This document shows, piece by piece, positions 5,365 through 25,999 of a stretch of DNA of 64,000 nucleotides; position 1 is the first letter of the stretch, and each line of letters opens with the position of its first letter. The stretch comes from Anaeromyxobacter dehalogenans 2CP-1 (GTDB taxonomy: Bacteria > Myxococcota > Myxococcia > Myxococcales > Anaeromyxobacteraceae). A model generated the notes under the pieces. It saw nothing but the letters and a program-made list of their open reading frames with translations, was not told the DNA's origin and ran no database searches. The translations under genes were made by a program, and so were the position numbers. The stretch is taken from assembly GCF_000022145.1 (NCBI RefSeq), contig NC_011891.1, positions 434,001 to 498,000 on the forward strand. The letters are read 5' to 3'.

Positions 5365-7140
5365 ATGGCCAGGCTGTTGAAGGGGGCGGAGTACCTGATC
5401 TCCGAGGCGACGAAGGACGACGTCTTCACCCCGGAGGACTTCACCGAGGAGCAGCGCCAGATCGCCGAGACCGCGGAGCAGTTCGCCGAGTCGGAGGCGC
5501 TCCCGGCCGAGCACGCGCTCGAGCAGCACGAGCCGGGCGTGGCCGCGGCGCTCATGCGCAAGGCGGGCGACGCGGGCCTGCTCATGATCGACGCTCCGGA
5601 GGCCTACGGCGGCCTGGCGCTCGACAAGGCCACCAGCATGCTGGCCGCCGAGCGGATGGGCACGGGCGGCGCGTTCTCGGTCTCCTACGCGGCGCACACC
5701 GGCATCGGCACGCTCCCGCTCGTCTACTACGGGACCGACGCGCAGAAGGACCGCTACCTCACGAAGCTGGTGACCGGCGAGTGGGCCGCCGCGTACTGCC
5801 TCACCGAGCCGGAGGCGGGGAGCGACGCCATGGGCGGGAAGGCCACCGCCACGCTCTCGCCGGACGGGAAGCACTACCTCCTCGACGGCACCAAGCAGTT
5901 CATCACCAACGGCAGCTTCGCGAACCTGTTCACGGTGTTCGCGAAGGTGGACCGCAAGCACTTCACCGCCTTCCTGGTGGAGCGCACCTTCCCCGGCGTG
6001 ACCGTGGGGCCCGAGGAGAAGAAGCTCGGCATCAAGGGCTCCTCCACCACCTCGGTGATCTTCGAGAGCGCGAAGGTGCCGGTCGAGAACGTGCTCGGCG
6101 AGATCGGCAAGGGGCACAAGATCGCGTTCAACGTGCTGAACGTGGGCCGCTTCAAGCTGGGCGCGGCGGTCACCGGCGCGGCGAAGCTCGCGCTCGCCAC
6201 CGGCGCCGCCTACGCGAACGCCCGCAAGCAGTTCGGCACGCCCATCGCCCGCTTCGGCGCGATCCGCGAGAAGCTCGCCGACCAGGCCGCCGCCGTCTAC
6301 GCCTCGGAGTCGCTCATCTACCGCCTGGCCGGGCTCATCGACGACCGGCTCGCCACGATCCCCGCCGACCAGCCCGGCTACTACGAGGCCTACCAGCAGG
6401 GCATCGAGGAGTACGCGATCGAGTGCGCCATCGCGAAGGTGTTCTGCAGCGAGGTGCTCGCCGACGTGGTGGACGAGGTGGTGCAGATCCACGGCGGCTA
6501 CGGCTTCATCCAGGAGTACCCGGCCGAGAAGTACTACCGCGACGAGCGCATCAACCGGATCTTCGAGGGCACGAACGAGATCAACCGGCTGCTGGTGCCG
6601 GGCACCATCCTGCGCCGCGCGCTGAAGGGTGAGCTGCCGCTGCAGCGCGAGGTCATGAAGGCGATGGACGCCCTCATGAACCCGTCGCTCGACGAGGCCG
6701 ATCCGGCGGTGCCGTTCGCGGCCGAGAAGGCCACCGTGGCCAACCTGAAGCGCGCGTTCCTGGTGGTGGCCGGCGCGGCGGTGCAGAAGTACGGCGAGGC
6801 GCTGAAGGACGAGCAGGAGGTGCTGCTCGCGCTCGCCGACGTCGCCATCCAGGCGTTCGCGGCGGAGAGCGTGGTGCTCCGCGCCGAGAAGACCGCGTCC
6901 ACGCAGCCCGAGGCGCGCCGCGCGCTCGCCGCCGCCGCGGTGAAGGTCCACACCTTCGCCGCGGCCGAGAAGGCCGCCACCGCCGCCCGCCGCGCCGCGT
7001 TCTACGTGGGCGAGGGCGACACGCTCACCATCCTGCTCGGCGGCATCCGCCGCTTCTCCAAGTACGACGCCGCCGGCCTGCTCCAGGCGAAGCGGCGCCT
7101 GGCGGACGCGGTGCTGGAGAGCGAGCGATATCCGTTCTGA
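5365..7140 (+). CDS. fadE: Acyl-CoA dehydrogenase (FadE/VLCAD-like)
   Basis: A 591-residue FAD acyl-CoA dehydrogenase, which makes the first double bond of beta-oxidation. Signatures include YCLTEPEAGSDA near residue 145, KQFITNG, GFIQEYPAEKYYRD and IFEGTNEINRLLVPG near 390. A roughly 190-residue helical extension follows the canonical domain, as in long-chain FadE/VLCAD types. A strong GAGGAGGAG site precedes the ATG. It is third in the fadNAE operon, and electrons would pass to an ETF encoded elsewhere. Its stop codon is the first element of a structured repeat that recurs at 24956. Confidence 0.94.
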   Translation: MARLLKGAEYLISEATKDDVFTPEDFTEEQRQIAETAEQFAESEALPAEHALEQHEPGVAAALMRKAGDAGLLMIDAPEAYGGLALDKATSMLAAERMGTGGAFSVSYAAHTGIGTLPLVYYGTDAQKDRYLTKLVTGEWAAAYCLTEPEAGSDAMGGKATATLSPDGKHYLLDGTKQFITNGSFANLFTVFAKVDRKHFTAFLVERTFPGVTVGPEEKKLGIKGSSTTSVIFESAKVPVENVLGEIGKGHKIAFNVLNVGRFKLGAAVTGAAKLALATGAAYANARKQFGTPIARFGAIREKLADQAAAVYASESLIYRLAGLIDDRLATIPADQPGYYEAYQQGIEEYAIECAIAKVFCSEVLADVVDEVVQIHGGYGFIQEYPAEKYYRDERINRIFEGTNEINRLLVPGTILRRALKGELPLQREVMKAMDALMNPSLDEADPAVPFAAEKATVANLKRAFLVVAGAAVQKYGEALKDEQEVLLALADVAIQAFAAESVVLRAEKTASTQPEARRALAAAAVKVHTFAAAEKAATAARRAAFYVGEGDTLTILLGGIRRFSKYDAAGLLQAKRRLADAVLESERYPF

Positions 7141-7268
7141 TCTCACGAGGGCTGCGCCCTCGCCCCGCCGCCCTGCGCTTGCCGAAGGGCGGCGGGGCCC
7201 CGCTCCTGCTGCGCGGGCCGGTGACCTCGCGCGCCCGCCTCCGCGGGCGGGCGCGAGGTCCCCGCGGG
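7135..7268 (+). repeat. Dispersed multi-hairpin repeat, copy 1
   Basis: It starts with TTCTGATCT, which includes the fadE stop, followed by hairpins GAGGGC-TGC-GCCCTC (7147-7161), a CCGCCGCCCT...AAGGGCGGCGG stem, and a long GACCTCGCGC...GCGCGAGGTC stem. The same series of blocks recurs on the minus strand at 24956-24828 with only small changes. No coding potential is seen. It is probably a REP-like or terminator-like element. There is no U-tract, so intrinsic termination is uncertain. Confidence 0.75.
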
Positions 7269-7386
7269 CGCGCCTGGCGGCGCGCTGAGCCGTGACCTCG
7301 TCCGGCGGGTTCGGGGCTGCGCGGCGCGCCGGCGCGGGCTACGCTTCGGCGCGCCGGGCCCGCGACGGCCCGGGGAAGGGCACCCG

Positions 7387-8082
7387 GTGGACGACCAGCA
7401 GCGGCGGATCGCGGAGGGCGTGGCGCTCCTGCGCGCGCGCTTCGGCGAGAAGATGAAGGCCACGCCCTCCCTCGCGGACGCGAGCCCGCAGGGCGACGGG
7501 CCGGCGAACCGGCACGGCATGCCGAAGGAGCCGCCCGGCCAGAACGTGTTCGAGAAGCACGAGTGGCCGGTGATGGACCTCGGCACCGGCACGCCCGACC
7601 TCGCGCCCGAGCGCTGGCGGCTCGTGGTGGACGGCGCGGTCGAGACGCCGCTCGAGCTCTCCTACGCCGGCCTGCTGGCGCTCCCGCAGGTGGACGAGGA
7701 GGCCGACTTCCACTGCGTGACCGGCTGGTCGATCCTCGACGTGGCGTTCCGGGGGGTCCGCCTCGAGACCGTGCTGGCGCTGGCGCGGCCCACCGCGGCG
7801 GCCACCCACCTCATGGCGCACTCCGCCGACGGCTACTCCACCAACCTGCCGCTGGAGGAGGCGCTGAAGCCGGACGTGCTGCTCGTGCACGCGGTCGAGG
7901 GAAAGCCGGTCACCCGCGAGCACGGCGGGCCGGTGCGGATCGTGGTCCCACAGCTCTACGCCTGGAAGGGCGCGAAGTGGCTCACGCGCCTCGAGCTCAT
8001 GACGCAGGACCGGCGCGGCTACTGGGAGATCCGCGGCTACTCCAACACCGCGCACCCGTGGCGCGACGACCGGACCTGGTGA
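7387..8082 (+). CDS. Molybdopterin-dependent oxidoreductase, sulfite-oxidase/YedY family
   Basis: 231 residues from GTG at 7387, with GGGGAAGGG upstream and a possible -10 TACGCT at 7340-7345. It matches the sulfite-oxidase molybdopterin fold: the FHCVTGWS cysteine (about residue 116) is the expected molybdenum ligand, followed by AHSADGYSTNLPLE and GGPVRIVVPQLYAWKGAKW. No Tat signal or transmembrane segment is evident, unlike the periplasmic YedY/MsrP, so it may be cytoplasmic. Substrate is unknown. It stands alone between the fad operon and a convergent zinc-ribbon gene. Confidence 0.85.
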   Translation: MDDQQRRIAEGVALLRARFGEKMKATPSLADASPQGDGPANRHGMPKEPPGQNVFEKHEWPVMDLGTGTPDLAPERWRLVVDGAVETPLELSYAGLLALPQVDEEADFHCVTGWSILDVAFRGVRLETVLALARPTAAATHLMAHSADGYSTNLPLEEALKPDVLLVHAVEGKPVTREHGGPVRIVVPQLYAWKGAKWLTRLELMTQDRRGYWEIRGYSNTAHPWRDDRTW

Positions 8083-10617: not shown

Positions 10618-11474
10618 CTACGCGGCGCCCGGCAGGCGCGCCACCGTGAGCCGGGGCAGGCCGGCCAGGTCCCGTCGGGCCTCCGCTTGCGCGAACCCCG
10701 CGTCGCGGCACAGGCGCGGCAGGAGCTCCAGGTGGCCCTCGTGCATCTCCAGCACCAGCGTGCCGCCGGGGGCGAGGCGGGCCGGGGCACCCTCCACGAT
10801 GCGCCGGAGCAGGGAGAGGCCGTCCGGGCCGCCGTCCAGCGCCAGCCGCGGCTCGCGCCGGACCTCGCGGGGCAGCGTGTCCAGCTCGCCACGCGGCACG
10901 TAGGGCGGATTGGACACGATCACGTCGAAGCGCTCGCCCGCCCGGAGCGGCGCCCACAGGTCGCCCTGGCGCAGGTCCACCGCCGCGCCGAGCGCGCGCG
11001 CGTTCTCGGCGGCGACCGCGAGCGCGTCGGCGGAGAGGTCGGTCGCGACCACCCGCGCGCCGGGCCGCTCCAGCGCGAGCGACACGCCCAGCGCGCCGGA
11101 CCCGGTGCACAGGTCGAGCGCGGCCCCGCCCTCCGGCAGCGCGTCGCGCGCCGCCTCCAGCACCAGCTCGGTCTCCGGCCGCGGGACGAGCACGCGCGCG
11201 TCCACGAGGAACGGCCGGCCGTAGAAGTCGCGCCGGCCGGTGAGGTAGGCGGTGGGCTCGCCCTCGGCCCGGCGCCGCACCAGGTCGCGGAACGCGGCCA
11301 GCTCCGGCTCGCCGAGCGGCTTGTCGAAGTCGAGGTAGAGCCGCATCCGCTCGCAGCGCAGCGCGTGCGCGAGCAGCAGCTCCGCGGTGAGCCGCGGCGC
11401 GTCCACGCCCTTGCGGCCGAAGAACTCCTGGGTCCAGGCGAGGAGGCGGAGCGTCGTCCAGGCCCCGCCGTCGC

Positions 11475-12862: not shown

Positions 12863-13444
12863 TCAGTCCCGCCGCGCCAGCGCCTCCGAGAGCGCCTTGA
12901 TGGGCCCCACGTCGGCGCGGCTCGAGTCCACCAGCAGCTTCAGCACGGTGAGCGCCGCGCGCGCGAGGTCCGAGAGCACCTCCAGCCGCCGCGCCTTGAA
13001 GCGCGCCTGCGCCTTCACCGCGGGGTCCACGTCGGCGAGCGCGGCCCGCACCTCGGCGAGCGCGCGCTCGAACGCGGCGAGCGCCTGCTCCACCGCGCGC
13101 TTCTCGCGCTCGCGCAGCACCCGGGCCACCAGCTTCCAGACGTTGGTCTCCGCCTCGAAGTGCTCCTTGCGGTCCCCGGGGACCTCCACCGTCCGCACCA
13201 CGCCCCAGCGGCGCAGCTCGGCGAGGCTCATCGAGAGCAGGCCGGTGGAGATCTGCAGCCGGTCGCACAGATCGGGCGCGGCGAGCGGCCGGTCCGACAG
13301 GAACAGCACCGCCCAGATGCGCCCGAGCTGGCGCCGGAAGCCCCACAGCTCCATGAGCGCGCCCACCGCGTCGGCGACGGCCAGGTCGGCCTTCTGCAGC
13401 GCGTGGGAGGTCGGCGCGGCGGCGCGTTGCGCGGCGGCGGTCAT
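12863..13444 (-). CDS. GbsR/MarR-type transcriptional regulator
   Basis: 193 residues. A winged helix-turn-helix (about 35-115) has the pattern ...WAVLFLSDRPLAAPDLCDRL followed by STGLLSMSLAELRRWGVV and a wing EVPGDRKEHFEAE, as in GbsR/MarR-family DNA-binding proteins. A long helical C-terminal part probably dimerises. It is the last gene of the menaquinone operon, 13 bp after ubiA, so it is likely cotranscribed. The shared palindrome before this operon and before the polyprenyl synthase is a reasonable candidate target. Its ligand is unknown. Confidence 0.8.
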   Translation of the reverse strand: MTAAAQRAAAPTSHALQKADLAVADAVGALMELWGFRRQLGRIWAVLFLSDRPLAAPDLCDRLQISTGLLSMSLAELRRWGVVRTVEVPGDRKEHFEAETNVWKLVARVLREREKRAVEQALAAFERALAEVRAALADVDPAVKAQARFKARRLEVLSDLARAALTVLKLLVDSSRADVGPIKALSEALARRD

Positions 13445-24675: not shown

Positions 24676-24949
24676 CGAATGGCAGGTATGGACCGGGGCG
24701 GTCTGCGCGCAGTCCCCGGTTGGTGCAGGACGCAGCGTCGCTGCCGCGGCTGGAGACCGTCGCGGAAGCGGACCGAAGGCAAGCAGGGAGGGGTCCCCGC
24801 GCAGCGGGGGAGGGGCGCAGCCCCTCGCCGCGGGGACCGCTCGCGCGCCCGCGCACGCGGGCGCGAGCGGTCACGGGCCCCGCGCAGCGGGAGTGGGGCC
24901 CCGACGCCCTTCGGCAAGCTCAGGGCGGCGGGGCGCAGCCCCCGTTAGA
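24676..24949. other. Intergenic region filled by hairpins
   Basis: The 274 bp between polyprenyl synthase and M16 peptidase carry the second copy of the dispersed repeat plus another GGGGC-type hairpin (about 24811-24825). The remainder (24676-24780) has no feature I can name. Confidence 0.5.
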
Positions 24950-24956
24950 TCAGAAC
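24828..24956 (-). repeat. Dispersed multi-hairpin repeat, copy 2
   Basis: Read on the minus strand it begins TTCTGATCTAACG, includes the TGA stop of the polyprenyl synthase, then follows copy 1 block by block: GGGCTGCGCC hairpin, CCGCCGCCCT..GCTTGCCGAAGGGCG stem, GCTGCGCGGG, then a GACCGCTCGCGC stem closing with GGTCCCCGCGG. Orientation relative to the upstream gene is the same as at 7135. Confidence 0.75.
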
Positions 24957-25999
24957 GCCCGCTCGGTCAGCTGCAGCGCCGCGGCGTGCAGCGCCCGGCG
25001 GTGCACGCCGTCCGGCACCTGCTCCAGCGCCTCGAGCGCGGTGCGGGTGTGCTCCCGGGCGAGCGCGCGCGCGGCGTCCACCCCGCCGACGCGCTTCACG
25101 ACCGCGATCACCTCGCCGGCCACCGCCTCGACGTCGGCGGTGCCGTCCACCACGCCCCCGAGCCGCCCCCGCAGCGCCGGCTCCGCCTCGCAGGCGCGGA
25201 TGAGCGGCAGCGTGGCCTTCCCCTCGATGAGGTCGGTGCCGAGCCGCTTGCCGAGGAGCCGCGGATCGGCGGCGTAGTCGAGCGCGTCGTCCACGAGCTG
25301 GAACGCGACCCCGATGCCCTCGCCGAAGCGCACCAGCGCGGCGGGGATCTCGCCCACCTCGCCGGCGGCCCAGGCGCCGGCCGCGGCCGCCCAGCCGAAC
25401 AGCGACGCGGTCTTGCCCATCACCACGTCCATGTACGCCTGCTCGGTGGCGGAGAAGCCGCCGCGGAGCGAGAGCTGGAGCACCTCGCCCTCCACCAGCC
25501 GCCGCATGGTGGCGAGCAGCGGCGGCAGCGCCGCGGAGCGGGCCGGCTCGGCCGAGACGATCTCGAGCGCGCGGGTGAGCAGCCAGTCGCCGGAGAGCAC
25601 CGACACGGCGTTGCCCCAGATGACGCGCGAGGCCGGCTGGCCGCGGCGCACCGGGCCGTCGTCGATGACGTCGTCGTGCAGCAGCGTGGCCGAGTGGGTC
25701 AGCTCGGCGGCCACCGCGTACGGCACCGCGCCGCGCATCTCGCCGCCGCAGGCGCCGCAGGCGAGCAGCGTCACCATGGGCCGGATGCGCTTGCCGCCGG
25801 CGGAGACGAGGTGGCGCGCGGCCGCCTGGAGCTTCGCCTCGGCGTCCTCGGTGGCGCGGGTGAGCTGCGCCTCCAGCTCGAGCAGGCTCTCCGGGAGGCT
25901 CGGCACGCCGGCGAGCGCCGCCTGCGCGCGCTCCGGGCGGACGCCGCGCTGCGCGCTCGCGTCGAGCTGGGAGAGGATGGCCTGCTCTTGCGCCGCCAT
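24950..25999 (-). CDS. Polyprenyl (isoprenoid) diphosphate synthase
   Basis: 349 residues of the trans-prenyltransferase family. The first Asp-rich motif is LLHDDVIDD (109-114) and the second is FQLVDDALDY, with GGKRIRP and KTASLF between. It elongates allylic diphosphates with IPP. Small residues near the first motif suggest a long-chain product, probably the octa/hepta-prenyl tail for menaquinone. The ATG at 25999 has GGAGGCGCGGAA upstream. It shares an operator-like palindrome with the menaquinone operon. Confidence 0.93.
   Translation of the reverse strand: MAAQEQAILSQLDASAQRGVRPERAQAALAGVPSLPESLLELEAQLTRATEDAEAKLQAAARHLVSAGGKRIRPMVTLLACGACGGEMRGAVPYAVAAELTHSATLLHDDVIDDGPVRRGQPASRVIWGNAVSVLSGDWLLTRALEIVSAEPARSAALPPLLATMRRLVEGEVLQLSLRGGFSATEQAYMDVVMGKTASLFGWAAAAGAWAAGEVGEIPAALVRFGEGIGVAFQLVDDALDYAADPRLLGKRLGTDLIEGKATLPLIRACEAEPALRGRLGGVVDGTADVEAVAGEVIAVVKRVGGVDAARALAREHTRTALEALEQVPDGVHRRALHAAALQLTERAF

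Follow-up and report, generated by a model that had tools for sequence, protein, structure and literature searches.

A dispersed multi-hairpin repeat of Anaeromyxobacter that often lies directly behind stop codons

Bacterial genomes commonly contain small palindromic repeats. REP/BIME sequences and their RAYTs (PMC2817692, PMC3733652) represent one such system, in which small dispersed extragenic palindromes with imperfect stems form clusters and often lie behind stop codons. The repeat described here is alike in these respects, but it is limited to one genus and close relatives, and each of its units contains four or five distinct hairpins. For E. coli, earlier work cited in the RepRanger paper (PMC12306157) puts 260 of 496 REPs (or 446 of 4,072) within 15 nt of a stop codon; there, as here, a hairpin directly follows a same-strand stop with a possible effect on translation or on the mRNA, whereas our repeat does so at 58% of its sites, often supplies the stop itself and is an array of ~130 bp. 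Yersinia YPAL/RU-2 and Caulobacter CIR are, in the available text of their descriptions (PMC2229807), ~100-170 bp long, not AT-rich, capable of forming RNA hairpins and free of TA-ended terminal repeats, as is the present repeat, and the mobility of YPAL was inferred from empty sites; to judge by the papers, they are unrelated to our repeat in sequence, and that text describes no stop-codon targeting. Classical MITEs (Correia/NEMIS, RUP) are likewise non-autonomous, non-coding, shorter than 200 bp and intergenic, and filled and empty sites, by which the mobility of MITEs is judged, occur for our repeat as well; in contrast to MITEs, it showed no fixed-length target duplication at occupied/empty pairs. 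Copies 1 and 2 (below) fold into separate hairpins with no long end-to-end pairing. Integron attC sites also have a hairpin starting close to a stop codon, but their core boxes are missing in nearly all copies of the repeat.

The repeat resembles REP/MITE-class small mobile repeats, yet it is filed in neither named family. A first-pass annotation of this DNA knew no named family matching it, and we found none either: Rfam returned 0 matches for the analysed stretch at gathering score and 0 for copy 1 at E up to 1, and no description was found in the open-licence literature searched (subscription papers could hold one). What the repeat provides is filled/empty pairs at the same genes in two close strains, with the host stop visibly rewritten. 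Such pairs allow a test of whether target choice, tolerance of an element that comes with a stop codon, or a function in the 3' UTR lies behind the clustering at stop codons, and they are natural with/without pairs for measuring the effects of hairpins on mRNA ends, decay and translation.

Two copies in the window and the anatomy of the unit

The window, a stretch of 64,000 nucleotides of the Anaeromyxobacter dehalogenans 2CP-1 genome (NC_011891.1, positions 434,001 to 498,000), carries two copies of the repeat. Both were found where the annotation had placed them: fadE ends in TTC TGA at 7135-7140 (+) and the polyprenyl synthetase gene ends in TTC TGA at 24955-24950 (-), each with a copy directly 3' (Table 1). 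The reported match of ~130 bp with blocks in the same order also stood, alignment giving 83-84% identity over this length, but the unit proved longer and runs from the stop-codon junction through hairpin H5, copy 1 covering 7135-7285 (+) and copy 2 24955-24810 (-). Copy 1 folds at -108 kcal/mol (z -3.8) and copy 2 at -95.8 kcal/mol (z -2.55). The left-end motif of copy 1, TGATCTCACG, is common to other copies, and H4 of copy 1 is preceded by GTG and followed by CCCCGCGG. In copy 2, H1 and H2 are merged because 6 bp are missing at their junction. No intrinsic terminator (GC hairpin plus T-tract) was found around copy 1, in 7100-7450. Immediately 3' of copy 1, at 7286-7325 of the window, CCGTGACCTCG and CGGGGCTGCGC resemble a decayed second unit.

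Table 1. Features of the two copies in the window
Feature	Position	Strand	Remarks
Stop codon TGA, acyl-CoA dehydrogenase gene (fadE)	7138..7140	+	left edge of copy 1; ORF 5365-7140, product acyl-CoA dehydrogenase (Pfam Acyl-CoA_dh)
H1 of copy 1	7146..7162	+	CGAGGGC-TGC-GCCCTCG, 7-bp stem, UGC loop; covariation in 32 distinct copies
H2 of copy 1, long form CCCCGCCGCCCTGCGCTTGCCGAAGGGCGGCGGGG	7163..7197	+	fold
H3 of copy 1, small hairpin around CTCCTGCTGCGCGGG	7199..7217	+	fold; conserved block in alignment
H4 of copy 1, ACCTCGCGCGCCCGC..GCGGGCGGGCGCGAGGT	7224..7259	+	fold; strongest compensatory change
H5 of copy 1, variable 3' hairpin GCGCGCCTGGCGGCGCGC	7268..7285	+	fold
Stop codon TGA, polyprenyl synthetase gene	24950..24952	-	left edge of copy 2; gene 24950-25999
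H1 + H2 of copy 2, merged	24902..24944	-	alignment; fold
H4 of copy 2, ACCGCTCGCGCCCGC..GCGGGCGCGCGAGCGGT	24836..24871	-	fold
H5 of copy 2, GAGGGGCTGCGCCCCTC type	24810..24826	-	fold

Across copies the unit measures ~110-135 bp and consists of H1-H4 in fixed order and a variable H5, reading in gene orientation left end, H1, H2, H3, CCGTGA, H4, CCCCGCGG, H5. The left end is often GATCTNA. H1 takes the forms CGGGGCTGCGCCCCG, CGAGGGCTGCGCCCTCG, CGGGGACTGCGTCCCCG and CGGGGCGTGCCGCCCCG; H2 has three forms, most copies carrying one that is shorter than that of copy 1 and has a conserved C.T mismatch; H3 is of the CCCCTGCTGCGCGGGG type, and H5 is of three types. The hairpins are maintained by compensatory change: both sides of the stem differ together among the H1 forms CGGGGCTGCGCCCCG, CGAGGGCTGCGCCCTCG and CGGGGACTGCGTCCCCG and among the H4 forms ACCTCGCG../..CGCGAGGT, ACCGCTCG../..CGAGCGGT, AACGGTCGCG../..CGCGACCGTT and AACCTGCGCG../..CGCGCAGGTT. 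For scoring, a script concatenated the arms of the H1 and H4 helices ahead of the alignment; 9 of 16 pairs were changed on both sides (69 cells), 96.9% of cells were paired, and the covariation score was 0.372 versus 0.102 +/- 0.013 upon shuffling (0/500) and at most 0.076 in slid controls. Some whole hairpins are also swapped between strains while their neighbours stay nearly unchanged (H4 at 4839012, H2 at 13072 and 1532049), an exchange of entire blocks that resembles the outcome of gene conversion or of template switching from one copy to another. The swap is seen in the orthologous locus pairs L140:7184-7295 and L021, L190 and L016, and L171 and L010, and the replacement hairpin is well paired.

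Family size and placement relative to stop codons

The annotation had proposed a structured dispersed repeat that follows the ends of unrelated genes in gene orientation, and searches of this and related genomes confirmed it, with many more than two copies. A covariance model built from 24 copies found 64 in the 5,029,329-bp single-contig genome and 34 in that of G002, the nearest complete relative; BLAST with copy 1 as query returned ~48 matching places in the whole genome, the best other copies at E = 1e-35 to 1e-38. The 64 copies occupy 55 independent sites, four of which hold head-to-tail arrays (2, 2, 4 and 5 units) in which the whole 105-130 bp unit is repeated. The copies of the five-unit array (3535170-3535825, L051) are near-identical with a 129-bp period, and so are those of the four-unit array (1955556-1956036, L042), with periods of 130/105 bp. 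Anaeromyxobacter are soil bacteria, and the repeat was matched in 8 of 8 congeners searched, in 4 of 15 other genomes of the same family and in 0 of 36 other genomes of the same order. An exact 24-nt core, GGGGCCCCACYCCTGCTSSSCGGG, occurred in 74 stretches, all of them in Anaeromyxobacter, in a scan of 84,980 species genomes. Plasmid and phage collections held no match, and carriage by a plasmid or phage was rejected on that basis.

With genes called by a simple home-made codon-usage finder, only 2 of the 55 sites fall within predicted genes, and at 32 (58%) H1 starts 0-14 nt, most often 0-6 nt, behind a same-strand stop codon. Random oriented intergenic insertion would place 4.2% of sites at a stop per 12 nt, or 5.2% scaled to 15 nt (32/55 versus 5.2%, p about 5e-27). 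The count is conservative, as at 13072 a stop adjoins the copy but escaped the H1 pattern, and at 2982311 the copy follows TTCTAA, behind a reading frame that was not predicted. The idea that copies always follow stops of the same orientation, which the annotation had put forward for checking, holds for these 32 sites but not for every copy; the non-stop copies include ones behind terminator T-tracts (943346, 3956728, 1532049), behind TTCTTCT strings (4337779, 1376557) and at a tRNA 3' end (3144216) and, in other species, ones close upstream of the start of a gene in the opposite orientation. Elsewhere in Anaeromyxobacter the placement is alike: 34 of 63 copies lie just behind a same-strand stop, and seven more are located 65-67 nt behind one because a ~60-nt hairpin lies in between. 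Copies fetched from G003-G006 and G010 show the same at-stop placement, and those from G007 mostly the leader-hairpin arrangement. The leader hairpin (ACGACAG..CTGTCGTTTAGCCATG) stands between stop and element at L291, L302, L303, L309, L314, L333, L350 and, in G007, L268-L272; it seemingly also occurs without the element, e.g. behind fadE in G005 (L157).

After deduplication, 125 left flanks gave the consensus WTCTNA for the six bases that precede H1 (A/T 85%, T 68%, C 48%, T 50%, last A 80%). Genes with a copy end in Phe in 12 of 33 cases here (36%) and in 5 of 23 elsewhere, versus 23 of 943 other genes (2.4%). The annotation had suggested that the repeat supplies both the terminal Phe and the stop codon. 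For the stop this was right in part, since the stop was switched in 6 of 11 filled/empty pairs, compiled by hand with counter-examples and a partly deleted copy included, versus 3 of 117 control genes (Fisher 6e-6). For Phe it was not: element-free orthologues also end in TTC TGA (fadE in G007, the synthetase in G004 and G006), so the proposal that the Phe codon comes from the element was rejected. Given that empty orthologous sites carry the same TTC, terminal Phe is a property of the site. The AT3 over the last three codons was 13% vs 9% here (p 0.14, not significant) and 39% in other species, a strong effect, and a fadE codon is TAT in orthologues with the element and TAC in those without it. 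Selection for AT-rich synonymous codons after insertion was set aside, as the paired empty sites are already T-rich, which we read as target preference.

Filled and empty sites and the host stop codon

Sites were compared with G002, in which the upstream flanks are ~95% identical. Of the sites that could be compared, about half carry a copy in both genomes, and at the rest G002 is empty, remodelled or occupied by another repeat; three further sites filled in G002 are empty here (L181, L183, L188). The two strains differ at about 15 sites. Read across these aligned loci, the presence/absence differences indicate mobility on the strain time scale, and the empty sites in the nearest relative support insertion into 3' ends, one of the two origins that the annotation had offered. 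In five clean pairs (219534, 1955896, 4551746, 589078, 4702924) an empty TAG stands opposite a filled TGA or TAA, e.g. at 219534 the empty GTGTTC TAG GGCC versus the filled GTGTTC TGA TCTGACGGGG. Reading the difference as a change made by insertion takes G002 to show the ancestral empty state, although precise loss may have occurred at individual sites. At the polyprenyl synthetase site (458807), the G002 ortholog ends in TTC TAG, and the copy that follows has lost part of its sequence. Judged from the junctions, insertion often appears to rewrite or supply the host stop, the host giving the T and the element the rest. At 4992581 and at G002 116529, the reading frame closes a few codons earlier, at a stop on the element's edge. 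Copies at 860698, 4804178 and L183 lie behind an unchanged TAG, indicating that some insertions fell outside the stop. The left junctions are ragged (TGA/CGGGG, TAG/ACGGGG, TGA/TCTGACGGGG), and in 20 pairs there was no consistent target duplication and the right end was ill defined, features that set the repeat apart from classical transposons. The native hairpin is still present 3' of the element at 219534 and 189975; it is gone at 589078, where the element sits, and therefore is not always kept.

Orthologues of the two window genes differ in whether they carry a copy. For fadE, full copies are present in this genome (G000) and G001, a related unit in G003, and none in G005, G006 and G007; G002 has a remnant resembling a deletion between two GGGCTGCGC repeats. 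For the polyprenyl synthetase gene, the copy is full in G000, related units occur in G003 and G005 (in G005 behind the leader hairpin), remnants in G001, G002 and G007, and none in G004 and G006.

A separate palindrome, CGCTCGCCCTGAGCTTGTCGAAGGGCG, occurs three times in a row in G002 (L136, ~11350-11450) behind a TAG where this genome has the element; the long H2 of copies 1 and 2 (7163-7197 and 24902-24930) holds nearly the same hairpin. At that site, behind the palindromes, lies an ORF of 334 aa (L136:11828-12832) whose C-terminus, read by eye, is HNH-like.

Possible origin and role

We read the repeat as a non-autonomous mobile element made up of successive GC-rich hairpins, whose target is T-rich and whose left end carries a stop, and which would form a structured 3' UTR when transcribed; we give this reading a probability of about 0.6. 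A putative trans-acting enzyme, possibly of a kind that works on single-stranded hairpin DNA, would insert the element at short T-rich sites such as TTCT/AG, and in genomes of ~75% GC such sites would mainly be stop codons, the T-tracts of terminators and sequences complementary to ribosome-binding sites. After a host T, a stop codon would be completed by the left end (GATCTNACGGGG, GACGGGG or AACG), so that the gene would stay closed and the insertion would be tolerated; tolerance together with the T-rich target would concentrate surviving copies at stop codons. In the transcript, the 3' UTR would begin with these hairpins, in most cases ahead of the hairpin native to the gene; by analogy with REPs, they would probably delay 3'-to-5' decay there or influence termination and ribosome release. 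An effect of this kind is likely in principle, as the hairpins would lie in the mRNA. Genes enclosed by two nearby copies were rejected as autonomous versions, as ordinary genes lie between the copies in the three close pairs examined. An unlikely variant is a stop-codon-homing element, whose machinery would prefer stop codons as such, by cutting after the T of TAG or TGA or by working at points of translation termination or at single-stranded 3' ends, each insertion rebuilding the stop and adding a structured 3' UTR.

Unlikely, in our estimate, is a functional 3'-end RNA element that selection has kept for protection of transcript ends, termination or control of ribosome release, so that placement would reflect selection and not target choice. 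The at-stop copies are predicted always to be transcribed with their gene, stem pairing is maintained, and several species share a copy at the same genes, e.g. the polyprenyl synthetase gene in G000 and G003 as well as remnants. Ribosome stalling is also reported for E. coli REPs located within 15 nt of a stop (PMC12306157). However, copies are gained and lost between strains ~5% apart, copy 1 has no U-tract, non-stop copies also lie at T-rich sites, and the empty sites are already T-rich (e.g. TTC TAG), pointing to target preference.

That the repeat is a classical REP/BIME spread by a RAYT (TnpA-REP) of Anaeromyxobacter appears very unlikely, even though its extragenic palindromes have conserved mismatches (the C.T of H2), dozens of copies exist, some in tandem clusters, and proximity to stop codons is as in E. 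coli. The genome has five matches to Y1_Tnp, two of them near-identical genes of 222 aa (G000:C1:559196 and 1225143; L031, L032) and three weak, but none of the Y1_Tnp genes fetched from nine genomes, at loci above the search threshold, is flanked by the element, which was absent within ~1.5 kb apart from two weak matches of 25-26 nt. Moreover, no GTAG or CGTC tag was recognised next to the palindrome when alignments were read without formal scoring, and the unit has four or five different hairpins where a BIME has one or two REPs in alternation. The place behind stop codons, the hairpins and the similar length would also suit attC sites or remnants of integron cassettes, an explanation that is most improbable, as a GTTRRRY/RYYYAAC-like box is present in only 2 of 64 copies and the copies are dispersed instead of forming a single cassette array. 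That GC-rich hairpins resemble one another by chance, a doubt that the annotation itself had raised, could be suspected in a genome of ~75% GC, and the frequency of simple 13-mers such as GGGGCTGCGCCCC in the window does not exceed chance expectation; this explanation is ruled out by whole-unit matches reaching 1e-38, the 64 model matches, the genus-limited core and the covariation.

Conservation bears on how much any one copy matters to its host gene. Shared copies have a median identity of 91% versus 95% for the flanking coding DNA; the element is conserved no better than its flanks, and slightly less than the coding sequence beside it, which argues against strong function at single loci.
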